Shown: positions 5,215 through 19,872 of the stretch, piece by piece
Numbering within the stretch: the stretch's first letter is position 1
Layout of the letters: each line of letters begins with the position of its first letter
Source: a virus
Direction: 5' to 3' (one strand)
IMG/VR virus record: IMGVR_UViG_3300005581_000175
Coordinates: 1-20,479 of that record
DNA: 20,479 nt
Made by a program: the position numbers and the translations under genes
The notes under the pieces: generated by a model
Database searches by the model: none
The model's input: only the letters and a program-made list of their open reading frames with translations
What the model was told of the DNA's origin: nothing

Positions 5215-6906
5215 TTATTTTAAAGCTCCGTGATTTGGTAAATCATAAGTCCATTTTGCAACCTCGATAGGGTTTTGCTCGAATTTTGCTTCTTTTCTAA
5301 GGCTCGGATCGAGGTCGTTTATCATTTGTTGCGCCTGTTTAGCTGTTAATCTGTCGTTGTTTTTCTTTAGATAGATACTTCTTTGCCAGAAATGTTTACA
5401 ATTAACACCTCCTTTGTATAAAAATAGGTTGTAAGTGTCTGCACCACCCGGTCCAAAACCTTTGTTTACCCCTTTTCTACTCGCTGCTTCTATATCTTCC
5501 TTTCTAAAAAGTAGATTTGCGCCCATCATTTTACGACAAAACGCTCTTTCTGGTGACATACTCCCCTTATATTCGTATCTAATTTTGAACAATTTAGTGT
5601 CTTGTTCGCTTGTTCTTTCTGCAAAAGCACTCGGAGCGTATGCCAATTGTAACGATGACATATTTAATGCTGTTTCTGTAACCTTTGAATCTGCATTATA
5701 CTCGCTTTCGTCTATCGCTTCCCATTCGTTAAGGTCGATTTGTTCCCCTAATTCTAATAAAGCATCGGCAAACATATCGTCTGTATGGTCGTGATTGCAT
5801 TGCACTTGTGCGCTTAACGTTGTGGCTTGTTGTACGACCTTTCTAAGAGGTATAAAATCTAAATCAATTACTAACCCTGCATCTGTAAATATTTCCATTA
5901 AAGCATCTAAAACAACTTCTTTCTTAGGTGCAATTACATTAATCATTAATTCGTTAAATGCGCTTTCCATTTCGTTAGCATTATTACCTAATCCTGTATT
6001 GTCTTTAATACCAAAAAGGATTGGAGAAGTTACCCGGTGCGAAATCATAATCTTTTGCCCTGATTCAGCACTTAAAAACTCGTATTGCTTGTGCGCTTCT
6101 GAAACTTCCAACGCTTCAACTGTGATAGCGTTTTCTTTGTTATCGTTAAAGTTTAAAACAAATTTTCCTGCTCCTTGTGAACCTGTTAATTTGTCTTTAA
6201 TATCTTTTTGAATTTCTCTTTTAACATCTTCGCTTTCGGGTGTACCATTATTCATATTAACGATGTGACCGAAAGACAAACCGTTTTTAATATGATTGAT
6301 ACAATAGTTAGCGATTTCTTCCTCTAATTCTGCATAAGGTAAACCTGCTAAATAGCACGGGTCTGTAAAATAGGTTTTCCCTACTTGGTAATCTGAAATA
6401 ACATAAACTAAAGAACCCTCTTTTACTTTATTAAATCCGAAAGCATCGATAAATACAGGCTCGTATTTTCTGGTGTTGTTAAAATCTTGTGAATACCAAT
6501 AGCCTAAAATATCCCCGTTCTCATCCATTTTTTGAGGAACTACTTTATTTTTAGGTATGTGCTTCGCTTGTTTAAGTTCGCCTTTTTTGTAGATTAATTC
6601 GATGGATGCTTCGCCGAATAAAACATAGTCTTGACAAATGGCTCTTAAATCATTCTTTCCTAAAATAGTTTTGATGGTAGCAAACAATAAAGGTTTTATT
6701 GCTTGTTGCGTACTCATTAAACCCTTGCCGTAAATGAATTGTGCGTAGCTATCTATAATGGCTCTATTGGTAGGACTGCCATTGTAACGGTCTATGATAT
6801 ACTGATAGAAAGAGTTTTTATCGCCATTTAAAACCCATTCTTTAGACTGCACCTCTTTTACTTGTGGTCTAATATAATTTGATAATTGGATTACTTCTAT
6901 ACTCAT
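5215..6906 (-). CDS. Portal protein with an extra C-terminal domain
   Basis: A 563-residue portal that would form the ring through which DNA is packaged. Portal-like features are the N-terminal helical region with RAIIDSYAQFIYGKGL (about residues 48-63), DYVLFGEASIELIYKKG (about 95-111) and a long central helix region ending in NELMINVIAPKKEVVLDAL. The last 130 residues form a separate domain (RKEDIEAASRKGVNKGFGPG, then GADTYNLFLYKGG and CKHFWQR) seen in Bacteroidetes phage proteins, so this looks like a fusion with a minor-capsid-like module. I set the start at the ATG at 6906. An in-frame TTG at 6921 lies within the conserved upstream element and is unlikely to be used. This is the first gene of the leftmost transcription unit. 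Confidence 0.85.
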   Translation of the reverse strand: MSIEVIQLSNYIRPQVKEVQSKEWVLNGDKNSFYQYIIDRYNGSPTNRAIIDSYAQFIYGKGLMSTQQAIKPLLFATIKTILGKNDLRAICQDYVLFGEASIELIYKKGELKQAKHIPKNKVVPQKMDENGDILGYWYSQDFNNTRKYEPVFIDAFGFNKVKEGSLVYVISDYQVGKTYFTDPCYLAGLPYAELEEEIANYCINHIKNGLSFGHIVNMNNGTPESEDVKREIQKDIKDKLTGSQGAGKFVLNFNDNKENAITVEALEVSEAHKQYEFLSAESGQKIMISHRVTSPILFGIKDNTGLGNNANEMESAFNELMINVIAPKKEVVLDALMEIFTDAGLVIDLDFIPLRKVVQQATTLSAQVQCNHDHTDDMFADALLELGEQIDLNEWEAIDESEYNADSKVTETALNMSSLQLAYAPSAFAERTSEQDTKLFKIRYEYKGSMSPERAFCRKMMGANLLFRKEDIEAASRKGVNKGFGPGGADTYNLFLYKGGVNCKHFWQRSIYLKKNNDRLTAKQAQQMINDLDPSLRKEAKFEQNPIEVAKWTYDLPNHGALK

Positions 6907-6940
6907 ACCTTTATAATGCAAAAGTTTGTTTTTGGCTCAA
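6907..6940 (-). promoter_or_regulatory. Bipartite late promoter-like element, copy B (before portal)
   Basis: Read on the minus strand: TTGAGCCA (6940-6933), 11 variable bases, TTGCATTAT (6921-6913), 6 bases, then the portal ATG at 6906. Both blocks and both spacings are identical in copies at 9712-9745 and 17299-17332. It starts one base after the T-run of a terminator, which fits a new transcription start. If CATTAT is the -10 box and TTGAGC the -35 box, the spacer is 16 bases and transcription would begin at or next to the ATG. Confidence 0.75.
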
Positions 6941-6941
6941 T

Positions 6942-6971
6942 AAAAAAGCCACTATACTTAAATAGTGGCTT
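6942..6971 (-). terminator. Rho-independent terminator after the tail tube gene
   Basis: A perfect 10-bp inverted repeat, AAGCCACTAT / ATAGTGGCTT (6946-6955 and 6962-6971), with a 6-base loop. It is followed on the minus strand by TTTTTT at 6947-6942. It ends the protease-capsid-tail tube unit and sits directly before promoter-like copy B. The A-run on the other side might allow weak bidirectional function, but no plus-strand gene approaches it. Confidence 0.9.
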
Positions 6972-6994
6972 GTTTAATAAAGTTATTGTTAAAA

Positions 6995-7513
6995 TTACGG
7001 TGCTACATTTGTTGCTGAAACTAATACTTCTAAAGCTGTTTTCGCTGTAGATGATAAAGACGGACTAATTACCTTATCCATTGCTTCTAATGCAATATTA
7101 TAACATTGGGTGTCTGTAGATTTGTTTAAAGTTGTTGCATCCATTCCAGATTCAACACCGCAAACAATTACATTACCGTTATAATCTTTTACAAATGCGT
7201 AAACTCTACCGTACAATAAAGCAGAAAGTTCAACCTCACTTGTCACTCCTAATTTAGGCAATACTAAAGACAATGATTTTTTAAATTCTACCGTTCTATT
7301 TTCTTGATTAATAGTTCCTACATCTTCAAACTTATTACCCGTTCCTTTTACTTGGTATCTGAATACCGCTGTAATACTTGCAGGAATAGCAGTCACTTCC
7401 CCTGCTGTAGTGGTAAATACTGCATCATTAAAGACTGCAAAATCCACGCTTTTAATTCCTATTCGAGAATCTTTACATCCTAATCCTCTTCCTTTTGTTA
7501 TATCACAAGCCAT
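6995..7513 (-). CDS. Probable major tail tube protein
   Basis: A 172-residue, mostly beta protein starting MACDITKGRGLGCKDSRIGI. This cysteine-containing start is, from memory, typical of structural proteins of this size that follow the major capsid gene in Bacteroidetes phages. The alternating hydrophobic pattern (YGRVYAFVKDYNGNVIVCGV) fits a tail-tube beta-barrel. It follows the capsid gene after a 53-base gap containing a hairpin, and is the last gene before a strong terminator, an arrangement suited to an abundant virion protein. A head decoration protein is the main alternative. Confidence 0.55.
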   Translation of the reverse strand: MACDITKGRGLGCKDSRIGIKSVDFAVFNDAVFTTTAGEVTAIPASITAVFRYQVKGTGNKFEDVGTINQENRTVEFKKSLSLVLPKLGVTSEVELSALLYGRVYAFVKDYNGNVIVCGVESGMDATTLNKSTDTQCYNIALEAMDKVISPSLSSTAKTALEVLVSATNVAP

Positions 7514-7532
7514 TTATTTTAGTTTTAAAATA

Positions 7533-7554
7533 AGGGGAGAAACTAATCTCCCCT
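7533..7554 (-). terminator. Hairpin between capsid and tail tube genes (partial terminator or mRNA stabiliser)
   Basis: A perfect 8-bp inverted repeat, AGGGGAGA / TCTCCCCT, with a 6-base loop, followed on the minus strand by TATTTT. The T tract is shorter than at the other two hairpins, so it probably stops only part of the transcription. It might also protect the 3' end of the capsid mRNA. Either would raise capsid output relative to the next gene. It ends 20 bases before the downstream ATG. Confidence 0.7.
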
Positions 7555-7566
7555 CGTTACTTGTTC

Positions 7567-8589
7567 TTATCCTGCGTACAATACGTTGAATTTTTGATTT
7601 ACTACGTGAGCAGCAATAGTCACATTGTTTTTGATAAACATTTGTTCGCTGTTCGCTGCGATAAAATCAACTTTCATTGTGTTTACATCAGACAATAAAT
7701 CAGTACACCATACCAAGTTAGATTTCAAAGCTGCGATAACTACTTTCTCTGGTAGTGGTACAAATTCCACTTTCAATCCGTTGAAGTAGATATTTTGCGC
7801 ACTTGCATCCACATCAAAAGGTTTAGTATAATCAGTAGTAACATTGTTAGCTGCGATTATAAATTGTCTGTGTGATCTTGGAGCGTAGATAGTAGGTTGT
7901 TCTGCACCTGACAAAGCAGCGGCTGGAATAGCGGCAAAGATTTTGTCATACTCTGCTTTGATTACACTTGCAGTAACTGTAGTTCCTACAACTTTGATAC
8001 GTGTTCCAACTCCTGCTGTTGCTGAAGCGTTAGAATCGTTGTAAATCATTTTAACTAAAACACCATCAATTTGAGAAGCTGTTAAGGCTGCTACTTGTGC
8101 TTTTTCGGTTGTTGATACTTCCGTGTTTAAAGTTCCTGCTGTAAGTGCTGCAACTGCTGTTTTAGTAGTTGATTTAACACCATTCCAGAACTCATTTTCT
8201 AAAGCCAAAGAGATTTGTTTAGCATACAATCCACCGATTAACAATCTTTCAAATTCTGTTGACATAATTTCCCAAGCACCCGGCTTGATGTCTTTTTTGA
8301 ATCTTGAAAAACGTAAGTTAGCAGGATCGAATGTTTGGTAAAACTGACCTTTAGTTGGAGTTACGGCTACATCAAAAGCGGTCAAAGAACCTGCTGTAGT
8401 AGGTACTCCACTTGTGTAAGCTTGTAGGGTTGCAGATGCTGTAGCTTCTGTAAAAATTGTTTCGGCTTTAACATCTTCTTCAAATGTTACAAGTCCTTTT
8501 CCTATGGTAGCATTTTCGAATAAGATTTCTTCGATTATCGGTTCTGCTGCTACTCCTTTAATATCAATACTGTTATAAGTAATTGCCAT
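7567..8589 (-). CDS. Major capsid protein
   Basis: A 340-residue protein with an HK97-type capsid pattern. There is an N-terminal arm (about 1-60), then alternating helix and strand regions with GAWEIMSTEFERLLIGGLYA (about 103-122) and NEFWNGVKSTTK. The central section is Ala/Thr-rich (about 140-175), and the second half contains TIYAPRSHRQFIIAANN and a strand-rich end (EQMFIKNNVTIAAHVV). Position right after the protease-scaffold gene, size, and the strong hairpin behind it all fit an abundant coat protein. The gap to the upstream gene is only 18 bases, so the two are probably co-transcribed from the element at 9712-9745. Confidence 0.85.
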   Translation of the reverse strand: MAITYNSIDIKGVAAEPIIEEILFENATIGKGLVTFEEDVKAETIFTEATASATLQAYTSGVPTTAGSLTAFDVAVTPTKGQFYQTFDPANLRFSRFKKDIKPGAWEIMSTEFERLLIGGLYAKQISLALENEFWNGVKSTTKTAVAALTAGTLNTEVSTTEKAQVAALTASQIDGVLVKMIYNDSNASATAGVGTRIKVVGTTVTASVIKAEYDKIFAAIPAAALSGAEQPTIYAPRSHRQFIIAANNVTTDYTKPFDVDASAQNIYFNGLKVEFVPLPEKVVIAALKSNLVWCTDLLSDVNTMKVDFIAANSEQMFIKNNVTIAAHVVNQKFNVLYAG

Positions 8590-8607
8590 TGTTTATTTTT
8601 TTTTAAA

Positions 8608-9711
8608 TTATTTTGTTGCTCTGCGTTTTTGTAATTCTGTCATTTCTTCCCAAGCGATTTCTTTCGCTGGTTTGTTTTTTGTCAAACTGATTGGTGCTTG
8701 TGCTTCCAATTCTGTTTTAAATTCGTTTCTCAATTCTGAAATTTTAGTCTCTAATTGATTGGCAAATTCTAAAGTCATAGCGTTTAAATCTTCTTTTGAC
8801 AATTGGTAAAAAACCTCTTGTGTAGATTTTTCGCTTTTTACTACGGGTGCGCTTGTTGGTGCTGCTGCCATTGGTGCTGGTGCGTTTTCTTCTTCGACCT
8901 CTGCTTCTGGTGTTCCAATCTCTGCAACTGTTGAACCTGCTACTGTAATAACCATTCCATCAGCCAAAGTGTAATCCCCATCAGGAACTTCCATTTCGCC
9001 CTCTGCGCCTGTCATACTCATAAGCGTACCAACTGCTATGGTATCTCCCTCAAAGTTGAAAGTGATACTACCATCTGCATTGGCAATACTTCCAAGATTT
9101 ACCTCTGTTTCTTTTTTCAAAGACAAAGAAGCAAACCCTTGTTTAATCGCATCTACGATTTCGTTTACATTCATTTCTTGTTTGTTTAAATTAATTTGCT
9201 CTAAGTCGAAAAATCCATCTATTGAAAATCCCGTTACTTTTCCCGTTTTGATATAGTCATTCCATACTTGCTCGTTATCTACTTTCATTGAAGCAAACCA
9301 CGTTCCTATTGGCTCATCGAATCCGTGTAGTACGGACTTGTCATTTACCATATCTTCCTTAATCCAACTCTCTACGAATGTCACATCGGATAACTTCATA
9401 TCTTCGTTATGCTCTAATGTCGAACTGCTTTGATAGTTTTGTTTTAAGAAATTTTGGGAAGCAAGTAATATTGTTTCGGCAGGAAATACGATGTTAAACT
9501 CCTTGCCGTCTTGATTTCTGTATATTGGTTTTTCTGGAATAAGCACCGCTCCGAGTAGTATTCTTTTTTCGGTGTCGATTGCTTTTAATTGTAGTTTGGT
9601 ATCTTCTTTGAGTGCAATAAACATTGAATCCATTGCAGGATTTTCTACAAGTGAAATACCATACACTCCTGTAGTCTCGCCCTCTTTGAATATTACTTTG
9701 TACGTTTCCAT
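8608..9711 (-). CDS. Prohead protease (XkdF-like) fused to a scaffold domain
   Basis: A 367-residue protein that would guide and then process the capsid. Residues 1-170 look like a phage serine protease of the XkdF kind. There is LLGAVLIPEKPIYR (about 52-65), then LEHNEDMKLSDVTFVESW containing H101 and GFSIDGFF containing S163, the likely His/Ser catalytic pair. A small beta segment follows (DGSITFNFEGDTIAVGTL), then a low-complexity E/A/P linker (EEENAPAPMAAAPTSAP), then a charged helix (MTLEFANQLETKISEL) typical of scaffolds. I chose the ATG at 9711. A TTG further upstream lies in the promoter-like element. It is the first gene of the capsid unit. Confidence 0.8.
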   Translation of the reverse strand: METYKVIFKEGETTGVYGISLVENPAMDSMFIALKEDTKLQLKAIDTEKRILLGAVLIPEKPIYRNQDGKEFNIVFPAETILLASQNFLKQNYQSSSTLEHNEDMKLSDVTFVESWIKEDMVNDKSVLHGFDEPIGTWFASMKVDNEQVWNDYIKTGKVTGFSIDGFFDLEQINLNKQEMNVNEIVDAIKQGFASLSLKKETEVNLGSIANADGSITFNFEGDTIAVGTLMSMTGAEGEMEVPDGDYTLADGMVITVAGSTVAEIGTPEAEVEEENAPAPMAAAPTSAPVVKSEKSTQEVFYQLSKEDLNAMTLEFANQLETKISELRNEFKTELEAQAPISLTKNKPAKEIAWEEMTELQKRRATK

Positions 9712-9745
9712 ATTTAGATAATGCAAAAAGAACAAAGTGGCTCAC
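9712..9745 (-). promoter_or_regulatory. Bipartite late promoter-like element, copy C (before protease-scaffold)
   Basis: Minus strand: GTGAGCCA (9745-9738), 11 variable bases, TTGCATTAT (9726-9718), 6 bases, ATG at 9711. The 11-base spacer differs from copies A and B while both blocks are kept, which argues for selection on the blocks. It lies about 17 bases after the T-run of the terminator at 9763-9788. Confidence 0.75.
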
Positions 9746-9762
9746 ATTTATTTTATAAGCAC

Positions 9763-9788
9763 AAAAAAACCCTAACTAAATAGGGTTT
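9763..9788 (-). terminator. Rho-independent terminator ending the tail unit
   Basis: A perfect 8-bp stem, AAACCCTA / TAGGGTTT (9767-9774 and 9781-9788), with a 6-base loop. The minus strand continues as seven T residues at 9769-9763. It follows the stop of the small acidic gene by about 5 bases and separates the tail unit from the capsid unit. Confidence 0.9.
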
Positions 9789-9793
9789 CTTTT

Positions 9794-10015
9794 TTAATCT
9801 TCAAAATTCTCATCATACATCATATTAATATGATATTCTATTAATCGTAATGCCTTTCTTTTAATCTCATTCACTCGTATTTTATCATCTTCTAAGTAAG
9901 AATCAAAACCATCAACTGCGTTTAAAGCCTGATTACAAATTGAAACTACCTCATAACGTGTATCGCTTTGCTCGTATTCCATATCATCGAAGATAGGATC
10001 GTCTTGTTCTTCCAT
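9794..10015 (-). CDS. Small acidic protein of unknown function, end of tail unit
   Basis: A 73-residue, strongly acidic, mostly helical protein (MEEQDDPIFDDMEYEQSDTR at the start, MMYDENFED at the end). It begins 3 bases after the tape measure stop and is the last gene before a terminator, so it is surely co-transcribed with the tail genes. Acidic helical proteins beside tape measure genes can act as assembly factors, but nothing in the sequence identifies this one. Confidence 0.7.
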   Translation of the reverse strand: MEEQDDPIFDDMEYEQSDTRYEVVSICNQALNAVDGFDSYLEDDKIRVNEIKRKALRLIEYHINMMYDENFED

Positions 10016-10018
10016 AAT

Positions 10019-11638
10019 CTAATTGTTAAAAGTTGCTGTTGCTATTCTATTGCGGTCTAAACTTTGTGCTGTAGTCATATTGCCACTAACTACAAACGCT
10101 TCAACTGGTCTGTTTTGAGTTTTACCTATGCTTTGAGCAAGTTGATTGTTTGAATTTTGCCCTACTATGTTAAATTGTGGGGGTGCGCTTTGTCTGCCAC
10201 CATCATTACCACCTGCTGAACCACCACCGCTTATAGATGAAGCCTGACCTATTCCTGCTGCAACTATCGAAGCAATAGAGGTGGCTGCTGTTATCTTTGT
10301 AGCTAATATTCCTTTAAGTGTTGCTGCCGCTTGTACCGCATACATTGGATTGGGAACTACACCAATAACCGCAGGAACGGCTGCTAAATTTGCTTGTGCT
10401 ACTGCAATTGATTTAGCCGCTCCAACTATCACATCCGCAATTGCTAATCCTTTTTGAATTACCAATATACCCATTGCAATTTTTTTGTTTTTACCTGCAA
10501 ATTGTTGTAATATATCAAGACCTGTATCTAATGCGTTTCTTTTTGCATCTTGTAAAGTTTGCTCTATTTCTATTTTTCTAAGGTTAGCTTCTTCTAAGTC
10601 TAAAATTTCTTGTTCTGAAATTCTACGTTGTTCAATTACCCAGTTATCCCCAATAGCAACTTTGTTGGCTAAATCTTCTTCCATTGCGATTTTATCCGCA
10701 TCCCTTTTAATCTTATCGGTATCAACTGCTTTTAAATTATTCTCCTCTCCAAACGCATTCGCTTTGTCTAAGTACGCTTTTCGGTCTGCTAATAATTTAT
10801 CATTATGCTCTTTTGATTTCGCTTGACTTTCTTCATTTGCTTTTGTTTGATTTTCCCTGCCTTTATTTGCCGTATCTCTTTCTATTGTTAATCTTGCAAG
10901 TTCTTGACCTTGTATTTCCTTATTAAAAGCTGAATTATTTTTAAGTAAATCATCGTTTAATTTTTGGCTTTGCTCAACTGTCATTCCTTTAGTTTTTTGT
11001 AATTCTAAAAGTCTGTTTTGCTCTGCTTTTAACGCTGCTAATCTTTCAGTACTTGCCCCTCTTTCAATCGCCTGTATTTCCTTTACACTTTTACCTTGTG
11101 CTTCTGCTCTTAATATTTGTGCTTTGGCTACGTAATCAATATTAGATAATTCATCATTTAAAACCCTGCTACTTCTTTCTATTTCATCGTTTAATAATTT
11201 TTGTGCGTGTTCTGCTTTTTTTGCTGAACTTTCCATATTTGACATTGCAACTACTAAGGCAGTAATCAATACTACAACCGCCCCAATTCCTGTGCTTATC
11301 AAAGTGGCTCTAAATGCTTTTGTTGCTACGTTTGCCCCATTCGTTACCCAAGTTTGTAAAGCTGTTGCTGCTGTTGCTATCTTACTACCTTGCGAAAATA
11401 AAGCCAATGATTCAACCCCATCCTTAACGGACATAGCAAGTCCTCCCGTTGCATCGTTAAGCAATCCCATTGCACCGCCATTTTCTAATACTGACATACT
11501 CGAATCCCTCATCGAACCCGATAAACTATTATTAGAACCCTCTAATTTATTTAAGGATTTATCTAAATCTTTTACGTGTTTGTCAGCAACTGAAACATTA
11601 TCATTAATCCTAATATTAACTACTTTCTCTATTGCCAT
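10019..11638 (-). CDS. Tape measure protein
   Basis: A 539-residue protein that would set tail length and help DNA enter the host. The layout is typical: an N-terminal helix region, a hydrophobic segment at about 112-133 (TLISTGIGAVVVLITALVVA), a long charged coiled coil at about 135-385 with many E/K/Q heptads, and a second hydrophobic stretch at about 386-465 (AIADVIVGAAKSIAVAQANL and onward). A Gly/Ser/Asn-rich linker and a short C-terminal part follow. It is small for a tape measure, which suggests a short tail. Its start overlaps the stop of the 47-codon ORF by 10 bases. Unusually, it lies far from the tail chaperone gene. Confidence 0.85.
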   Translation of the reverse strand: MAIEKVVNIRINDNVSVADKHVKDLDKSLNKLEGSNNSLSGSMRDSSMSVLENGGAMGLLNDATGGLAMSVKDGVESLALFSQGSKIATAATALQTWVTNGANVATKAFRATLISTGIGAVVVLITALVVAMSNMESSAKKAEHAQKLLNDEIERSSRVLNDELSNIDYVAKAQILRAEAQGKSVKEIQAIERGASTERLAALKAEQNRLLELQKTKGMTVEQSQKLNDDLLKNNSAFNKEIQGQELARLTIERDTANKGRENQTKANEESQAKSKEHNDKLLADRKAYLDKANAFGEENNLKAVDTDKIKRDADKIAMEEDLANKVAIGDNWVIEQRRISEQEILDLEEANLRKIEIEQTLQDAKRNALDTGLDILQQFAGKNKKIAMGILVIQKGLAIADVIVGAAKSIAVAQANLAAVPAVIGVVPNPMYAVQAAATLKGILATKITAATSIASIVAAGIGQASSISGGGSAGGNDGGRQSAPPQFNIVGQNSNNQLAQSIGKTQNRPVEAFVVSGNMTTAQSLDRNRIATATFNN

Positions 11639-11772
11639 ATCCTTTTTATTTTTGCGATTGTTCCCTTAAAGTTTGTTGGCAGTTCATACTTGCCTTTAGC
11701 GATTTCGATTATCTCGCTTTTCGTACCGTACCACTCGTTAGAGTTGAGTAAATCAATGACTACTTTTATCAT
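11629..11772 (-). CDS. Hidden 47-residue ORF directly before the tape measure gene
   Basis: ATG at 11772-11770, TAG at 11631-11629. The product begins MIKVVIDLLNSNEWYGTKSE and continues as a basic, helix-prone chain ending KIKRIWQ. It overlaps the upstream distal-tail gene as ATGA and the tape measure start by 10 bases, so it fills the 130-base gap between them exactly. That double overlap makes a real gene likely despite its size. I do not recognise a family. The amino acid order (hydrophobic helix, basic second helix) would fit a small DNA- or protein-binding fold, but this is only a guess. Confidence 0.75.
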   Translation of the reverse strand: MIKVVIDLLNSNEWYGTKSEIIEIAKGKYELPTNFKGTIAKIKRIWQ

Positions 11773-14117
11773 AATAATTGTGTAACTGTTAGTGTGTAAG
11801 CTGTAACTCCTATCGTAAATACTACTGTTCCTGTGCGCTCTATTCCTGTTGCATTTTCTGCCGTTGTGATTCGTACATAGTCGCTTTGCTTTCCTGCCAT
11901 TTTATTAATAGTAATCCAACTCGAAGCCGTTGCAATTGTCCAACCTGTGTTGGCTTTTATTGCTATTTCAAAATGCTCTTTCGCTCTGGTGCTTGTGTAT
12001 GTTGTTGCACTTATTCCATTGGTAATGTATGAGGTCGTAGGTGCTGTAGAAATAATACTATCAACGGTCATAGGACTGTCAACTGTAGGAAGTAAAGCAT
12101 CAACTGTAATAAACGATATTGTACTTGCGCTATCTACGGGTGCTGAAAAATCTGTAAAGACTTCTACTGTTGCATCTGAATTAATCAGGTTTACTTTTAA
12201 AGTCGAAATCTTATATTTTTTATCCCCGATTATAAACCTATCATTTAACCCTAAATTATAAAGTATCGAAATAGGTATCTTACATTTGAACGTTAACACC
12301 CTGCATTTACGATTGAATAAATCTTCGATGTAGGTTTTCCAAAAGTTATAATACAATCCTTTTATTATTGGTGTATAGAAATAACTTGAGTTTTCATCTC
12401 CAAAGTTTAACGAGTTTGTTACCTGATTAAAATCTAAATTATCCTCCGTTGCTGTATGTGTTAATTTAGGAATGGAAACTCCAGACACTTTTATATTTGT
12501 GGCTAAATCTAACCGCCCATTTTTATAAAACAGTATTGGTTTGCCTTTGTACGGTTTTAATTCTTTGTCAATAGATAAACCACATTGTATATTAGTTTGT
12601 ATTTTAGGACTTACGTTATCGTTTGTCATACGCTCAAACATCATATTTTCAAACTGACTTTCTATCTTTAAATCCGAACCGCTTACATCATACTTTGCTT
12701 TTAAATCTCCGTACCCTACTTGGTATAAATCAAAATATCCTTTTCCTGCGATGGCATCAGTCTTTTGATAGGCAAAGTCTATTTGTTTTTTTATATCAGG
12801 TTTAGCAACTGTTATTTCTTTTATGTCAACTAAACCCGTTATATCATACGTCTTTCCTTTACCGTACCAATTATCTAAAGTGTCAATATAAAAAGTCGTT
12901 GCGCTGGTCGGTTTGATTATTAAATTAAATTGAGTTATCAAACTATTGATAAAATCCTTAACCTTAATTTGTGGTAGGTTATCCTTAACTACTAAATCCC
13001 CTAATACGGTTTGCTCTGCGAAAGTGGCTGTTTTTGTAACGGATGGAAATCCAAGTATTGCTACGGTTGTAACCGTTAGCGTTGTAGTGAATTTAAATTC
13101 CTCTGTTGCGCTAACTTTCCAAGTGTGTTTTTTTGTGTCTTTGTCTGTTTTCCATTGGGTTGTAGTAACTCCTTTTAAATTAGTTCTAACTCCCCAACTC
13201 TCCCCATCTAATAACCGTTCAACTCCATAAGGTACGGTCTCATATCCTGCGCTCGGTGTTATTGTTGTGTACGCTGCTGAATTTGTAGAAGTGCCTTGTG
13301 TGTATTCATTTGTTCCTAAATTCATTAAAACCCCTGTAAGGTCTGTTATATTCCCTGCGCTTGTGAAATCAACTAATAAACTTTGCCCCCCATTATCTAC
13401 CGTTCCCGTTTCTTTATGCAACCACATAAACAAATTATAAAACAAAGCTCGGTCAAAGAAATCCCTTGAAAAAGTTATTCCATACGTAACCTCTAAAGCT
13501 TCGATAATACGAATCAATCGTAAGGCTGGTTTGAAGTCGGTAAACTTTAACGTATTAGATACATAAATTATATCACGGGTTGAGTTATCGCCATAGTTTA
13601 AATCGCCTGTGGCTGTAATTAAAGGATAGTACACATCGCCCCCTGAAATAGTATCTTTGTGCATTCCATCGGTGACCGTTGCTATGTCGTAATTGTGATT
13701 GTAAGTAGTAAGGTTTAAATCTTTGGTCACATCAGCATTACCACTTAGTAAATTATCTCCGAACCGATCCGTTAAACTTACTGCATTACTGAAAAAAGTA
13801 ATCGAATACGAATAAGGCAAACCATCTTTTAACTTGCAATTGTCTAACTGAATTACCCCCGATTTATAAGGTAGGCTATTTACTTCTAAATAAGAATCTA
13901 CTCTTAAGTTTCCGTTAAATGTTCCATCTACATCCGCATTAAACCAATACGTTAAAATCTGGTTATTAGTCGGACTTGCTGGAATAGTAAACCCTTGCGT
14001 AAAATCCGTTACTACCTTTGAAATGTCAGATATGTTTTTTACCGATAAATTAATCTCGATATTCTCATCCTTAAATAAGTCAAGCTGTTTGCCTTGTATG
14101 TAAATAGATACGTTCAT
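11769..14117 (-). CDS. Large distal-tail/baseplate protein with C-terminal BACON-like domain
   Basis: A 782-residue protein. The N-terminus (KNISDISKVVTDFTQGFTIP, about 27-46) and the following beta-rich parts are like those of tail proteins shared among Bacteroidetes phages, probably baseplate hub or tail-tip components. The middle holds KVKDFINSLITQFNLIIKPT. The last 95 residues or so form a BACON-like beta-sandwich: TGWTIATASSWITINKMAG, then a GIERTGTVVFTIG strand pair and the terminal TLTVTQ. BACON domains are usually linked to binding of sugars or mucin, so this tip may touch host glycans. The start shares one base with the preceding stop (TAATG); the stop overlaps the 47-codon ORF. Confidence 0.7.
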   Translation of the reverse strand: MNVSIYIQGKQLDLFKDENIEINLSVKNISDISKVVTDFTQGFTIPASPTNNQILTYWFNADVDGTFNGNLRVDSYLEVNSLPYKSGVIQLDNCKLKDGLPYSYSITFFSNAVSLTDRFGDNLLSGNADVTKDLNLTTYNHNYDIATVTDGMHKDTISGGDVYYPLITATGDLNYGDNSTRDIIYVSNTLKFTDFKPALRLIRIIEALEVTYGITFSRDFFDRALFYNLFMWLHKETGTVDNGGQSLLVDFTSAGNITDLTGVLMNLGTNEYTQGTSTNSAAYTTITPSAGYETVPYGVERLLDGESWGVRTNLKGVTTTQWKTDKDTKKHTWKVSATEEFKFTTTLTVTTVAILGFPSVTKTATFAEQTVLGDLVVKDNLPQIKVKDFINSLITQFNLIIKPTSATTFYIDTLDNWYGKGKTYDITGLVDIKEITVAKPDIKKQIDFAYQKTDAIAGKGYFDLYQVGYGDLKAKYDVSGSDLKIESQFENMMFERMTNDNVSPKIQTNIQCGLSIDKELKPYKGKPILFYKNGRLDLATNIKVSGVSIPKLTHTATEDNLDFNQVTNSLNFGDENSSYFYTPIIKGLYYNFWKTYIEDLFNRKCRVLTFKCKIPISILYNLGLNDRFIIGDKKYKISTLKVNLINSDATVEVFTDFSAPVDSASTISFITVDALLPTVDSPMTVDSIISTAPTTSYITNGISATTYTSTRAKEHFEIAIKANTGWTIATASSWITINKMAGKQSDYVRITTAENATGIERTGTVVFTIGVTAYTLTVTQLL

Positions 14118-15586
14118 TAAATTACGGTATTCATTAAGTCAAAACTGTATTCAAAATCCATTGAGTACTGAATCAACTTATTAATTAGTTTGGTTTTCTT
14201 TTCAAATGATTTCTTAACGATATTAACCGGGAGTACTTGTCCGTTTTCTTCGAGATAAACAAACTCACTTAGCATTAATTCTTTGAATAAATCGTTATAA
14301 TGCTCCCCGATAAAGTCGGTATTGACTGTTACTTTCTCTTTTCCGTTGTTTAAAAAGGTCTTTTTGTTATGTGAGTTAAGATTATACGTTCCAAAATTGG
14401 AAACAATAGGCATAAAATCCTGACTTTCAAAGTCGATTGTTTTCTTTGACAGCTTGTTAAAGGGTATTGTTTGCCAGAAACCGTACTTATTTTTGAATAC
14501 ACAGTTAATAACAGGGTATTTACATTCCTCTTTTACCTCGAAAGTGTGCGTTTCTGTTCCTGTTGAGTACACAAAGACCGCATTAAACGAACCCTCAACA
14601 CTTGCATACGCTCCGATATTAACCATTCCTATTAATTGATTGGATAAATTCTGACTATAACTAAACGGAACGCTTACCCCATTGACTGTTATAGTGGTTA
14701 GGTTCTTTGTTTTAAAGTACAATGGATAAGTAGAACCATTGTAAAAGATATGCTTTGAAATGCTACTTAAAACGTTTGTGTTGATAGTAGGGTTCGCTAA
14801 TTCTGTATGATACCCGAAGCCATCCAAAGCGAATAAAGTTTGATTGATATAATAAACGGGTTCGTCTAAATACTTCATCGTCATTTCAGCATAAATCCAG
14901 GTACTATCGTTTAGACTTATAGCGTGACTTCCCCCTCCTAAAGTGGCTGTATAATTATTCTTTATAAAATCGTTTACTATCTTACTAATCTCAATTGCTA
15001 TCTTTGGCTGTCCTGCATACACTACGATTTTAGATAAAGTATAGTTTGGCAATATTGGTTTATCGGTTGTTTTATGTCCTTTGTATAAGTACAAGTTCAT
15101 AATGATTTGGTCAAACAATATTGTTGGTGTTACTGTAATATTATAAGGCGACCTCGATAATATAGTAGCGTCAGGCAATACTATTGGAATGATTGGATCG
15201 GGTATCTCAGGAGCAACGTAATGATTTGTAGTTGTTATCGTTGCATCTGTATTGTTTAAAACAGTCGCAAACACCGCATTATCATAATTAGCTGTAATAG
15301 TAACCGAACCTAATCCAGAATACAGCGTTCCATTCGTTGCTACAACTGTAAACAAACTCGAAGTATTGTAATCTAAATCAAAGGCTTGTTTATAATACGT
15401 TGGAATATAACCAATGTAACGAGATAGTAAATCGTCATACTCTGGTATTTCTGTATTCCCTGCTCCATACCTTGCAACCTTAAATATTTGATTTAGACTT
15501 AAACCTAAATTAGATTCACTAATATTTAATACTTCGTTCTCGCTTGGTATGGAAGTGAAGTCTATCGTTATCGTTGAAAATGCCAT
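14117..15586 (-). CDS. Distal tail / baseplate-associated protein
   Basis: A 489-residue, beta-rich protein with no signal peptide or membrane span. Residues about 130-145 are a Pro-rich linker (PEIPDPIIPIVLP). The second half contains EECKYPVINCVFKNKYGFWQ and then TIPFNKLSKKTIDFE, which resembles, from memory, a conserved region of Bacteroidetes phage tail proteins of this position. It abuts the gp10-like gene with no gap and overlaps the BACON-tail gene by one base, so the two large proteins are probably made together and act in the same tail-tip structure. Confidence 0.6.
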   Translation of the reverse strand: MAFSTITIDFTSIPSENEVLNISESNLGLSLNQIFKVARYGAGNTEIPEYDDLLSRYIGYIPTYYKQAFDLDYNTSSLFTVVATNGTLYSGLGSVTITANYDNAVFATVLNNTDATITTTNHYVAPEIPDPIIPIVLPDATILSRSPYNITVTPTILFDQIIMNLYLYKGHKTTDKPILPNYTLSKIVVYAGQPKIAIEISKIVNDFIKNNYTATLGGGSHAISLNDSTWIYAEMTMKYLDEPVYYINQTLFALDGFGYHTELANPTINTNVLSSISKHIFYNGSTYPLYFKTKNLTTITVNGVSVPFSYSQNLSNQLIGMVNIGAYASVEGSFNAVFVYSTGTETHTFEVKEECKYPVINCVFKNKYGFWQTIPFNKLSKKTIDFESQDFMPIVSNFGTYNLNSHNKKTFLNNGKEKVTVNTDFIGEHYNDLFKELMLSEFVYLEENGQVLPVNIVKKSFEKKTKLINKLIQYSMDFEYSFDLMNTVI

Positions 15587-16126
15587 TTACTTTTTTATTA
15601 AATTGTTTTGTATCATTACTTCCACATCCTGCCCAAAGGCTTTCATTAAATCTGTATCTACATATTTTTTAAATCCTAATTCTAAAGGTCTCGAAAAGAA
15701 GTTACTCGGTTTCATTCCTTTGTGATAAATGGAACGTGAGATTAAAAAGGCTGTACTTTGATAGGATAAAAACCTACCTGATTTTTTATCTTGAAATTGA
15801 AACCCTCTCGCCTTTACCCAATTTAAAATCCCTTTACTTAAACCGCCTTTTTTACCCGTGCCACTCCCAAACTTAAAAGGACTGTTTGGTGCTTTACTAC
15901 TTGAACTTTTACCCTTTACCCCTTGATCCACAAACTGACCGTACCCATCCATCGAAAATCCTATAATAGTATAGTTGTTATCTGTATCGCTTACTACTTC
16001 TTTTGTAATCGAGTTGTATAAATCCTTTGAAACGTTCTTCCCTCCTTTAGTTAAGTTTGTCCTTGCCTGTTGCACTACATAATCAGCAAAGGCTTGTGTA
16101 ACTACTTGTGTATTTAAGAGAAACAT
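15587..16126 (-). CDS. HK97 gp10-like tail completion/neck protein
   Basis: A 179-residue basic protein with the pattern of the gp10-like family. There is an N-terminal helix (VVTQAFADYVVQQARTNL), then SITKEVV and a strand pair, then GYGQFVDQGVKG, where an aromatic and DxG motif sits in a turn. A Gly/Lys-rich loop follows (GSGTGKKGGLSKG), and then a C-terminal part with FFSRPLELGF. Such proteins join the head to the tail tube. It overlaps the preceding gene by 13 bases, which fits pairing with the tail terminator-like protein. Confidence 0.75.
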   Translation of the reverse strand: MFLLNTQVVTQAFADYVVQQARTNLTKGGKNVSKDLYNSITKEVVSDTDNNYTIIGFSMDGYGQFVDQGVKGKSSSSKAPNSPFKFGSGTGKKGGLSKGILNWVKARGFQFQDKKSGRFLSYQSTAFLISRSIYHKGMKPSNFFSRPLELGFKKYVDTDLMKAFGQDVEVMIQNNLIKK

Positions 16127-16572
16127 CCGCTTGTGTTATTAGCTATTGTTAATTCAAACGTGCAGGAATACCCATCTAAAATGTTTAAGAAATCAAACTT
16201 TATCGCTTCGAGTGTTGGCTCATTGCTTAAATCAATATCGTTTGTATTATCTTGCGTTTTTAAATTCGTGATTGCTTTAATGATTATATCAGAAGTCAAA
16301 TCGAGATTATCCAACTTATTATCGTTTTTATAAAATCGGTCTGAACTTGCCACCTTACTTGTGTTTCTTTGTGTTAATGCGTGTACTACAAATTGATGTT
16401 TTACCTCTCCAATTCCTACTGTAGTTGTACCTATTGAAAGATTAACCAATGGGTACTGATTTGTTTTATACGTATCTATTTCTTCGCCCTCGCCCTCGAT
16501 TACGGTTGTAACTCTGGTGTCTAATTCAAAGAGTGATTTTAAAAAGGTTAAAGTTGTGAGTAAACTATTCAT
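16114..16572 (-). CDS. Tail terminator-like protein
   Basis: A 152-residue protein. It has the mixed alpha/beta outline of tail terminators: an N-terminal helix (LLTTLTFLKSLFELDTRV), central strands (YPLVNLSIGTTTVGIGEV, then HQFVVHAL), a segment with DRFYKNDNKLDNLDL followed by a helix, and final strands (GYSCTFELTIAN). The gene before a gp10-like protein is where such a terminator is expected. Its ATG overlaps the stop of the -1 frame extension of the upstream gene by 8 bases, a further sign that the extension is translated. Confidence 0.65.
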   Translation of the reverse strand: MNSLLTTLTFLKSLFELDTRVTTVIEGEGEEIDTYKTNQYPLVNLSIGTTTVGIGEVKHQFVVHALTQRNTSKVASSDRFYKNDNKLDNLDLTSDIIIKAITNLKTQDNTNDIDLSNEPTLEAIKFDFLNILDGYSCTFELTIANNTSGCFS

Positions 16573-16816
16573 TTTTATTTAGGTGTTTGTTTTCTTCTTG
16601 TGCTAAATCTATTTTAAATTCTAAAAACGTTAAGAAAGTATGTATGTCGAGGTTCGTAGTTTCTCCAAACTTAAAGATGCTGCTTCCAGCAACTGTATAA
16701 ATTGATTGATACCAACCCCATTTTTCGCTAAAACCTCCTCCAAAAGTTGATTCTCCGCTGTTTGTGCTTGGAAATAATGTTTCGTAGATTTCAATAATTC
16801 GTTGCTTAAATTGTAA
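16565..16816 (-). CDS. Minus-one frame extension of the tail chaperone gene (recoded product)
   Basis: An 83-codon open frame in -1 relative to the 222-residue gene, from just after the T9 run to TAG at 16567-16565. It has no ATG, GTG or TTG start of its own; the nearest upstream in-frame stop (TGA) lies before the T9 run. The product includes EKWGWYQSIYTVAGSSIFKF and then GETTNLDIHTFLTFLEF, a pattern I recall from tail chaperone-linked proteins of Bacteroidetes phages. The fusion would be 161 + 83 = 244 residues. It ends overlapping the start of the next gene, whereas the zero-frame stop leaves a 57-base gap. Confidence 0.75.
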   Translation of the reverse strand, partial: LQFKQRIIEIYETLFPSTNSGESTFGGGFSEKWGWYQSIYTVAGSSIFKFGETTNLDIHTFLTFLEFKIDLAQEENKHLNKNE

Positions 16817-17298
16817 AAAAAAACAATCGAACCTAATGCAACATCGAGTGGCATATCTAACAGTTCCTTTCCGTATGTTTCAGAACTTGTATAAGGCTCG
16901 ATGTTGTATAGGTCTTTAAAATTGTTGGCTATTGGTCTGAATAAAACTGCCATTGCTAAATGGTAATCTTCTTCTTCACGTAAATACTTGTCTAAGTCGA
17001 TATATTCCCCTGCTGTCATTTTATCTAAGTTCGGAATAAAACCAAACTCTTTGCCGTTGAGTTTAAAGCGTTGGATAAATTGTGGCTCTTGCTGTAGTGT
17101 TTGAGAAATTTGTAAAGCAATACTATTCAAGTCTTTAATCCTGATTTTAATTACATCTTCTAATGATAGTTTACAAAAGATAGTAACTAAAGCAAGTTTA
17201 ACAAACTCCTCGTCTTTGTTTTTTGCTACTGCTGCCCTAAATGTTTGATACTGTTTTAGGGTAATTTCGTTTAGTGTAGTTGGTATGGTTATCTTCAT
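16630..17298 (-). CDS. Tail assembly chaperone-like protein (zero-frame product)
   Basis: A 222-residue helical protein that begins MKITIPTTLNEITLKQYQTF. A tail chaperone would bind the tape measure protein and recruit tail tube subunits. Residues 1-161 are shared with the recoded product. V159-F160-F161-Y162 are encoded over a run of nine T residues (16823-16815). The zero-frame tail (residues 162-222) carries LAKNGVGINQFIQLLEAA. The identification rests on the frameshift architecture as in lambda G/GT, the helical character and the position among tail genes. It is first in its unit, behind promoter-like copy A. Distance from the tape measure gene is unusual. Confidence 0.65.
   Translation of the reverse strand: MKITIPTTLNEITLKQYQTFRAAVAKNKDEEFVKLALVTIFCKLSLEDVIKIRIKDLNSIALQISQTLQQEPQFIQRFKLNGKEFGFIPNLDKMTAGEYIDLDKYLREEEDYHLAMAVLFRPIANNFKDLYNIEPYTSSETYGKELLDMPLDVALGSIVFFYNLSNELLKSTKHYFQAQTAENQLLEEVLAKNGVGINQFIQLLEAASLSLEKLRTSTYILS
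16815..16823 (-). other. Slippery T9 run, probable recoding site
   Basis: Nine T residues on the coding strand, read in zero frame as GT-T TTT TTT T-AC. T TTT TTT lets both P-site and A-site tRNAs re-pair after a -1 slip. A run this long can also cause RNA polymerase slippage, where one added U would give the same -1 frame. It is the longest homopolymer I noticed in a coding region here. Confidence 0.75.
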
Positions 17299-17332
17299 AC
17301 CTTAATAATGCAATAAGGTTATTTTGGCTCAA
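17299..17332 (-). promoter_or_regulatory. Bipartite late promoter-like element, copy A (before tail chaperone)
   Basis: Minus strand: TTGAGCCA (17332-17325), 11 variable bases, TTGCATTAT (17313-17305), 6 bases, ATG at 17298. The TGA within the first block is also the stop codon of the large terminase gene. In this copy the six bases before ATG begin with TAA, so the in-frame TTG cannot extend the protein. That shows the block is a nucleic-acid signal rather than coding sequence. Confidence 0.75.
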
Positions 17333-18537
17333 CCGATATTGTATTTTCCTGCGTTGGGTTTAGCAAGTTGAAAGTAAATAGCGTAACGCATTGCATCGAT
17401 AGCGTGATTAAAAGCGTCTATTGCCGTGTTGCTTTTCTTGTCACTCCAAGAGTAGTTGTTTAGTTCTTTGATTATATTAATAGAATCGTTATCGATTATC
17501 AATTCATAATCCTGCATCAAAGCAATTCCTGCGCTTACACTTCCCGGTCCTTTAATCGTTTCTCTTACATTGTTTCCTCTGCTTCGTAGTTCGTGAATCA
17601 ATCGAGGTTCTGCACTATCGGCAACGATTAAACTGTTCGCACAATAACGAGCATTAATAACCGATATTTCTGTAGTGGTCAGTTTGGTTTGATATAATAA
17701 TTCCTTTACGTAAATGCGCTTATTTGGTTTGTCAATCGATGTTTGTACTAATGTAGTTGGATCAACTGAGAATCCGTAATCCTGACCGTAAATAGATTGT
17801 CCTACTTCCTCGAACTTTCCGAGTTTCCAATTCGTAAAGACTGCACCCTCTGACTTATCCAACCAACCTCCAAGTATAACGTGTTTGTATTTTAACGGGT
17901 TTGTTGCTTCGATGTTTAAAACTTCATCGATAAAACTCTGGTCTAAGTTTTGAATATTATCTAAGTAAGTAGTATGAATATAAGTTGTGTTTCCTTTTAT
18001 TCCATTGAATCCTGTTTCCACTCCTGCACTTTCAAAGAAACGTTTGTATATCCAATGTTCTTTTGTTGCAGGATTAAGTATTAAGATTACCCTATTCTGT
18101 ATTCCTTTTTGCCTAATTGATAAATTGATTTTATCGAAAGTCTTTTCGTCTGTGAGTTCTTCCGCTTCATCTAATATCCAAGTGGTAACACCTTGCAAGG
18201 ATTTAAGGTTTGCCGTTTGGTCTCCGCTTGAAGATTTAATACCTCTGAATATTATTTCGCTTTTGGTTTGCTTGTTTACGATTTCGGACTTGTTAATGTC
18301 GAAGTGATGGTTGGCATCCATTAAATCGATTTTCTCTTGAAATTCGGGAATAATCGAAAGGTGCGCACTTGTCATTGTCTGCCGAGTGAATAGAATCTTA
18401 TGCCCTGTTTCAAACGACAAAAGGCTGGCAAATGTGCCAACCCCGAAACTCTTTGAACTTCCACGACCTCCCGTAATTATAAAGAATCGTGTATCGTTTG
18501 CGAATAAAGATTTATATTTAGGATTTAGTGTTATCAA
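17329..18537 (-). CDS. terL: Terminase large subunit
   Basis: A 402-residue ATP-driven DNA packaging motor with nuclease. The ATPase part shows Walker A GGRGSSKS (residues 23-30), FTRQTMTS (50-57) and Walker B WILDEAEE (120-127, D123 E124). The nuclease part shows D253 in GQDYGF, D307 in VADSAE, and D374/D381 in AIDAFNHAIDAMRYA. Length and order match PBSX-type large terminases. The start is a TTG at 18537: an in-frame TAA lies two codons upstream, and the first in-frame ATG would come after Walker A. It overlaps the small subunit gene by 20 bases, so the two are coupled. Confidence 0.95.
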   Translation of the reverse strand: MITLNPKYKSLFANDTRFFIITGGRGSSKSFGVGTFASLLSFETGHKILFTRQTMTSAHLSIIPEFQEKIDLMDANHHFDINKSEIVNKQTKSEIIFRGIKSSSGDQTANLKSLQGVTTWILDEAEELTDEKTFDKINLSIRQKGIQNRVILILNPATKEHWIYKRFFESAGVETGFNGIKGNTTYIHTTYLDNIQNLDQSFIDEVLNIEATNPLKYKHVILGGWLDKSEGAVFTNWKLGKFEEVGQSIYGQDYGFSVDPTTLVQTSIDKPNKRIYVKELLYQTKLTTTEISVINARYCANSLIVADSAEPRLIHELRSRGNNVRETIKGPGSVSAGIALMQDYELIIDNDSINIIKELNNYSWSDKKSNTAIDAFNHAIDAMRYAIYFQLAKPNAGKYNIG

Positions 18538-19092: not shown

Positions 19093-19401
19093 TTAATAAG
19101 TACTTAATTTTAACAATGAATTTATAACCGCATCTTTAACTCCTCCGTTGTAATGTTCTAAAATCAAATCAGTATTAAAAGCATCGTTATAAATTGCTAC
19201 TACTTCCTCATCTTCTAAATCTTTTAAAACAGCTACTTTAGCTTTTTGTTCGTCTGTAAGTTCAATTACATTCTTATACGGAAACCAATCATTTAAAAGA
19301 GCCTTTCTGCCGGTACACCCTGCACACGGTTCAATTCCAATTGCTTCTGTAAACTTTGCGATAGTATCTCCAACCCCGTTGGATTTTTTAGACTTTGCCA
19401 T
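19093..19401 (-). CDS. Small GxGDTI / CxxC protein of unknown function
   Basis: A 102-residue protein. The start MAKSKKSNGVGDTIAKFTEA leads into IGIEPCAGCTGRKALLNDWFPY, a short pattern (GxGDTI...CxxC...RKxxLNxxFPY) that I recall from small proteins of Bacteroidetes phages near the terminase genes. C26 and C29 could bind a metal. The rest is acidic and helical (LKDLEDEEVVAIYNDAFNTD). It overlaps the end of the sigma-like gene by 109 bases in another frame. The function is not known. Confidence 0.75.
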   Translation of the reverse strand: MAKSKKSNGVGDTIAKFTEAIGIEPCAGCTGRKALLNDWFPYKNVIELTDEQKAKVAVLKDLEDEEVVAIYNDAFNTDLILEHYNGGVKDAVINSLLKLSTY

Positions 19402-19826
19402 ACTTTATTTTTTAATTTGTTTCTGTAATTTAAAACCGTTCCCCTGCCTATTCCCATTTTACGAGCGCACTCTCTCGATCCATCTTCATAACTATATTTT
19501 ATAATAGTCTTTTCGTGCCATTTAAGAGAATCAAATTCTTTCTTTACTATTTCGTAGTTTATGTTATTCTGGTAATGGTCAGAAGTTTCATCAATGATGT
19601 TTAAGTTTTCAATCTCTACAAATGTTTTGTTTTTGTTTTCTCTCAACTCCATTAAGAAAAGAGTTTTGATAGTTCGATAAACATACCATTCGTTAATCTC
19701 TTTAGTAACTCCGTGCAATTGCAGGTACATATCCTGAGTTAAGTCGTTTGCTTTGTCACGGTTTCCGCAAATAGACTGTGCCATTCGTACCCATTTCTCG
19801 TGATCTAAAGCTAACTTTTCTAACAT
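19293..19826 (-). CDS. Sigma-70-family-like factor
   Basis: A 177-residue protein resembling short sigma factors. Region 2-like sequence lies at about residues 8-60 (MAQSICGNRDKANDLTQDMY, then LQL), with the DLTQDMYLQL core matching the DLxQExxL pattern. A region 4-like helix-turn-helix lies at about 98-140 (WHEKTIIKYSYEDGSREC, then ARKMGIGRGTVLNYRNKL). The last 35 residues lie in the overlap with the next gene and look less conserved. Position just before the packaging and structural genes suggests a late-gene regulator. A DNA-binding protein that only shares the fold cannot be ruled out. Confidence 0.7.
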   Translation of the reverse strand: MLEKLALDHEKWVRMAQSICGNRDKANDLTQDMYLQLHGVTKEINEWYVYRTIKTLFLMELRENKNKTFVEIENLNIIDETSDHYQNNINYEIVKKEFDSLKWHEKTIIKYSYEDGSRECARKMGIGRGTVLNYRNKLKNKVWQSLKNPTGLEILSQSLQKQLELNRVQGVPAERLF

Positions 19827-19843: not shown

Positions 19844-19872
19844 CAAATATAATGAATAAACTAATACAACAA
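19844..19872 (-). promoter_or_regulatory. Bacteroidetes-type promoter before the sigma-like gene
   Basis: On the minus strand TATATTTG (19851-19844) matches the -7 box TANNTTTG exactly. A TTG at 19872-19870 lies 18 bases upstream, where the -33 box is expected. It sits within the 71-base gap before the ATG at 19826, so the host housekeeping sigma factor could drive the sigma-like gene and those behind it. It differs from the repeated element of the later units. Confidence 0.6.

Follow-up and report, generated by a model that had tools for sequence, protein, structure and literature searches.

Putative late promoters and a candidate cognate ECF-type sigma factor in a group of related Bacteroidota phages

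Late gene units and bipartite elements

The window, i.e., the whole stretch of DNA analysed here, comprises 20,479 bases and corresponds to the entire IMG/VR record; the features described below lie on its minus strand. The terminase large subunit gene (terL; 17329..18525; Pfam Terminase_3, E=1.6e-32) is followed by a 222-aa gene (16630..17298) that opens a first late unit and matches phrog_32199 (E=1.5e-21), a phrog of unknown function. The second late unit opens with a head maturation protease-like gene (8608..9711; Pfam Peptidase_S78_2, E=1.2e-11; phrog_3017) and the third with the portal gene (5215..6906; phrog_33693 portal, E=2.7e-149). Mosaicism is strong in this region: the structural genes at 7567-8589 and 10019-11638 are swapped for distant versions (35-39% identity) in the related phage G011, while their neighbours are ~90% identical between the two phages.

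A pattern search for TGAGCCA-N11-TTGCATTAT-N6-ATG returned exactly three matches in the window, and tolerating up to three mismatches added none. The spacers of 11 and 6 bases are constant in all copies, and the pattern never occurred in 100 dinucleotide shuffles. Each copy leads directly to the ATG of one of the three unit-opening genes. The earlier note on this DNA was thus right to describe three identical bipartite elements, far beyond chance, before genes that open a unit; its coordinates were off by 1-3 bases and are corrected here. Copy A (17296-17331) carries its predicted -35 block TGAGCCA at 17325-17331 and its predicted -10 block TTGCATTAT at 17305-17313, begins on the stop codon of terL, which it overlaps, and ends with the ATG of the 222-aa gene (17296-17298). 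Base frequencies across 67 distinct starts of this gene lend it further support. Copy B (9709-9744; -35 at 9738-9744, -10 at 9718-9726) precedes the protease gene, and copy C (6904-6939; -35 at 6933-6939, -10 at 6913-6921) the portal gene. As had been noticed, the latter two sit behind terminator-like structures. A hairpin followed by a T run lies at 9762..9788 (listed by the scan on the plus strand, the hairpin being symmetric), with AAACCCTATTTAGTTAGGGTTTTTTT preceding copy B, and a second hairpin lies at 6946..6971 ahead of copy C. The hexamer TTGAGC, formerly placed in copies A and B, is found in the 17.3-kb and 6.9-kb copies, whereas the 9.7-kb copy reads GTGAGC.

The promoter consensus of Bacteroidota is TTTG/TANNTTTG (PMC6847099). 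In agreement with the earlier note, the host-type TAnnTTTG is missing at the three sites, none of which shows the primary-sigma feature TANNTTTG just before the start. A promoter of the TANNTTTG type is present at 19844..19872 (TTG-N18-TATATTTG, predicted from its likeness to the consensus), upstream of the sigma factor gene described below. Among related phages, TAnnTTTG precedes 19 of 36 sigma genes and also 24 of 66 terL genes, an enrichment ahead of sigma genes that is suggestive only.

A phage sigma factor gene upstream of terL

The earlier note did not mention the 177-aa gene located upstream of terL (19293..19826), which, judging from profile searches and structural modeling, clearly encodes an ECF-type sigma factor. 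Alone, the window protein scores below the cut-off of 24 bits against Pfam Sigma70_r2 (E=0.0074, 16.5 bits), and its assignment therefore rests on the family profile and on the fold. Within a family set of 38 proteins (the window member and 37 relatives from other phages), 32 match Sigma70_r2, which represents sigma region 2 (best 1e-9), and all 38 match the NCBIfam ECF model; TIGR02937 spans residues 13-142 and thereby includes the region 4 helix-turn-helix. Searched against the PDB, the family profile retrieves ECF sigma factors (5uxx, 8e-7; SigL 6dv9, 1e-6; SigW, 1.5e-5). The AlphaFold model contains two helical domains, the second of which adds to the evidence for region 4, with a pTM of 0.38 that leaves the arrangement of the domains uncertain. 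The best Foldseek matches to this model are the ECF sigma factors SigL, SigE, and SigH, several of them in transcription complexes. With its 177 residues, two domains and neither region 1.1 nor region 3, the predicted protein agrees in sequence and fold with ECF (group 4) sigma factors.

A search for close relatives of the window sigma recovered only those of G011 and G012; sigma relatives confirmed overall number 335, of which 80 were listed. The sigma factors of the window and G011 are 75% identical; since other genes of this pair are equally divergent, this value alone is no proof of co-evolution. Replacement of the sigma gene by recombination was also considered and set aside, since identity does dip but mosaicism is just as marked in other genes. 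A CxxC motif is present in the product of a 102-aa gene (19093..19401) that overlaps the 3' end of the sigma gene out of frame by 109 bases. It lies directly downstream of the sigma gene in most of the 40 loci that contain both, and is a candidate partner or anti-sigma factor.

Putative promoter versions among related phages

Relatives were gathered through portal, protease, and terL searches. The 67 distinct starts of the 222-aa gene share AACAAAA around -31..-25 and CGTTAT at -12..-7. In related phages, 46 of 2106 ORF starts have CGTTAT precisely at -12, the mean for other offsets being 0.59, and a promoter score blind to -12/-11 finds 85 sites on the strand of the sigma gene versus 5 on the opposite strand. 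The sigma gene is present 1-5 kb upstream of terL in 48 of the 51 non-redundant terL loci that have enough upstream DNA; the 222-aa ortholog is likewise undetected in the remaining three. Cultured members of this group include the Nonlabens phages P12024S and P12024L, whose sigma gene (E=5e-30) is annotated as hypothetical with a Sigma-70 region 2. Their genomes contain 5-6 sites at -12, located at the starts of structural units, and reading AACAA...CGTTA[ATC]-N6-ATG; the database records do not mark them as promoters. A shared motif thus precedes late gene units in the window, in its sigma-encoding relatives and in P12024S/L. The related phages RAP44, Harreka_1, phiST, BS-TP2, and Larrie, the last three of which were covered in part, gave no match to the sigma and contain 0-1 sites each. 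In two other relatives, L045 and L044, with portal starts near positions 3084 and 858, respectively, a terminator hairpin and the portal promoter overlap: the -35 block is inside the hairpin, the T run extends into the -10 block and A stands at -11, an arrangement amounting to a fused terminator-promoter.

When the exact motif was searched over IMG/VR, one true relative was found, G002, with two sites; the other matches are unrelated and have no ATG at the right place. The earlier note expected copies before orthologous units; in many related phages the orthologous starts show a diverged version, at an equal distance from the ATG. Relatives that keep the genes and lack the blocks, which the note would have counted against its reading, do occur with respect to the exact blocks, yet they possess co-varied versions, so that the spirit of this objection does not apply. 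On the sequences compared, the exact TGAGCCA/TTGCATTAT blocks are a version of this phage rather than a family consensus.

Each of the near relatives has a single version at all its sites. TGAGCCA/TTGCATTAT occupies 3/3 sites in the window and 2/2 in G002, and TGATACA/TTACGTTAT occupies 3/3 sites in G011, 3/3 in G012, and 2/2 in L024; in G011 and G012 it precedes the same 222-aa gene as copy A. Both sites of L028 combine TGATACA with T[TC]GCATTAT, and this phage looks like an intermediate in which only the -10 block would have changed. The contigs of G002 and L028 do not include their sigma genes. These near relatives are ~90% identical in most genes, yet the promoter version differs between phages, and flanking sequences are conserved, e.g., TAAGGTATG after copy A in the window, G011, and G012. 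One version at all sites of a phage is expected from a change of their common reader.

One link between promoters and sigma factors concerns base -11. In Mycobacterium tuberculosis, SigH requires G-11 T-10 T-9, and through its residue N92 it touches the base paired with G-11 (PMC6411747). The equivalent of N92 is position 59 of the phage proteins, according to a profile alignment to SigR (1h3l) read against SigH numbering. Across 71 confident sites, selected by a score that uses neither -12 nor -11, G occurs at -11 in 64/64 phages with D, N, or E at position 59. Seven phages have another residue, six of which have A or C at -11: Met (the window), Gln (twice), His, and Leu are associated with A, and Tyr with C, the exception being L157, where Arg59 goes with G. 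The Fisher value of this association is 5e-8, ignoring relatedness, and in a scan of all 140 columns residue 59 ranks first for -11. When the sigma factors are clustered at 50% identity, the phages without D/N/E59 are spread over several different clusters. One sigma position thus appears to predict one promoter base almost perfectly.

In the -35 block, bases -31..-28 follow region-4 columns more closely than those of region 2 (p=2e-5). Base -28 is associated with residue 132, equivalent to K170 of SigW (PMC6713349). The spacer shows a similar, weaker region-4 trend, and both associations may result partly from descent. At the residues through which SigW is known to contact bases directly, no changes account for the altered -35 bases. 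In partial Mantel tests of sigma versus promoter distance given TerL distance, the correlation is 0.28 for the -35 block (p=0.001) and not significant for the -10 block. The spacer correlates as well; part of the association is therefore common descent, and this modest test was set aside as the main proof.

A predicted late switch and its known counterparts

Taken together, the element copies, their conserved position, the co-occurring sigma gene and the co-variation of residue and base lead us to propose, with a probability of about 90%, that the three elements are late promoters read by the phage-encoded ECF-type sigma factor. Host RNA polymerase would first express the sigma gene from its host-type promoter. 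The phage sigma would then load onto the host core polymerase and recognise a -35 element, TGAGCCA, and a -10 element, TTGCATTAT, in front of each of the three structural-gene units, where transcription would begin at or beside the A of the ATG. When this A is taken as +1, the common phage core reads G-11 T-10 T-9, in the register of SigH, so that the predicted start coincides with the ATG. An extra base separates the element from the ATG of the protease gene in G011, G012, and L024, hence leaders of 0-1 base are predicted. Late mRNAs would accordingly be leaderless or have one leader base, whereas 87% of the predicted transcripts of F. johnsoniae have leaders of >10 bases (PMC6847099). The phage-specific late promoter with leaderless mRNA put forward in the earlier note is therefore favoured, given the diverged version at orthologous starts, the missing TAnnTTTG and the co-occurring sigma. 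Its reading as sigma-70 hexamers, TTGAGC-N16-CATTAT, gives way to one of ECF type, whose core is at -12..-7.

The resemblance of these hexamers to sigma-70 elements could also point to host primary-sigma promoters of unusual sequence, but the host type is absent at the three sites, and sigma-70-like sites show no excess (48 vs 50 in shuffles); we give this idea hardly any credence. ECF sigma factors are common in Bacteroidota, and this abundance, together with the ECF-like motif of the window, would suit recognition by an alternative ECF sigma of the host, with the phage sigma active elsewhere. Yet sites differ between near-identical phages and agree inside each phage, their bases co-vary with a residue of the phage's own sigma, and five related phages without the phage sigma also lack the pattern, which makes a host reader unlikely. 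A translational operator or another RNA element before the three starts, the alternative retained in the earlier note, would fit the constant distance to the ATG and the lack of Shine-Dalgarno sequences in Bacteroidota (PMC6847099). Nevertheless, two blocks at promoter geometry with a free spacer between them are unexpected for an RNA operator, copies B and C come straight after terminators, and such an element fails to account for the coupling to sigma residues, leaving it very improbable.

Beyond the late promoters themselves, the related phages probably constitute a natural sigma/promoter series with repeated switches of specificity, in which residue 59 would set base -11 (D/N/E to G; Q/H/L/M to A; Y to C), all sites of a genome would change together, -10-only intermediates would exist, and late mRNAs would be leaderless in hosts whose transcripts mostly have leaders. 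If true, a group of Bacteroidota phages would possess a defined late switch, for which P12024S/L would offer a cultured model, and contigs of uncultured phages could be searched for late gene units. Direct tests of leaderless late translation in Bacteroidota would become feasible. Moreover, this series would be a natural data set on how a sigma factor and all of its promoters change specificity jointly, the virus remaining unbroken.

Phage-encoded sigma factors for late genes are already known, and what appears undescribed is the present family of Bacteroidota phages, with its natural switches of specificity; our literature search found no paper on this sigma/promoter family and no transcription study of P12024S/L. 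In phage 7-11, SaPh711_gp47 reads late promoters of sequence GTAAtg-(16)-aCTA (PMC8948821). The system predicted here resembles it in that a phage sigma directs the host polymerase, late genes are preceded by bipartite promoters and the start is 6-9 bases from the element; 7-11 is, however, a Salmonella phage with other promoter sequences, and the start in the window is predicted on the ATG. The likeness concerns the predicted mode of action, and the window sigma is not filed in the 7-11 family. The phiEco32 sigma, phi32_gp36, likewise serves middle and late genes, from promoters reading tAATGTAtA (PMC8948821, PMC4331800). These are single-element promoters and phi32_gp36 has no region-4 homology, whereas the window combines two elements with a region-4 domain. 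The bacterial ECF sigma factors SigH, SigW, SigL, and SigR share the reduction to regions 2 and 4, and the phage promoters share GTT at -11..-9, in their common core, with those of SigH and a -35 like TGAAAC with those of SigW; unlike them, the window sigma is encoded by a phage, upstream of terL, and its predicted targets are structural genes. Finally, the closest counterparts in culture, the Inhavirus members P12024S/L, have both the sigma gene and six sites, in a different promoter version, AACAA...CGTTAA.
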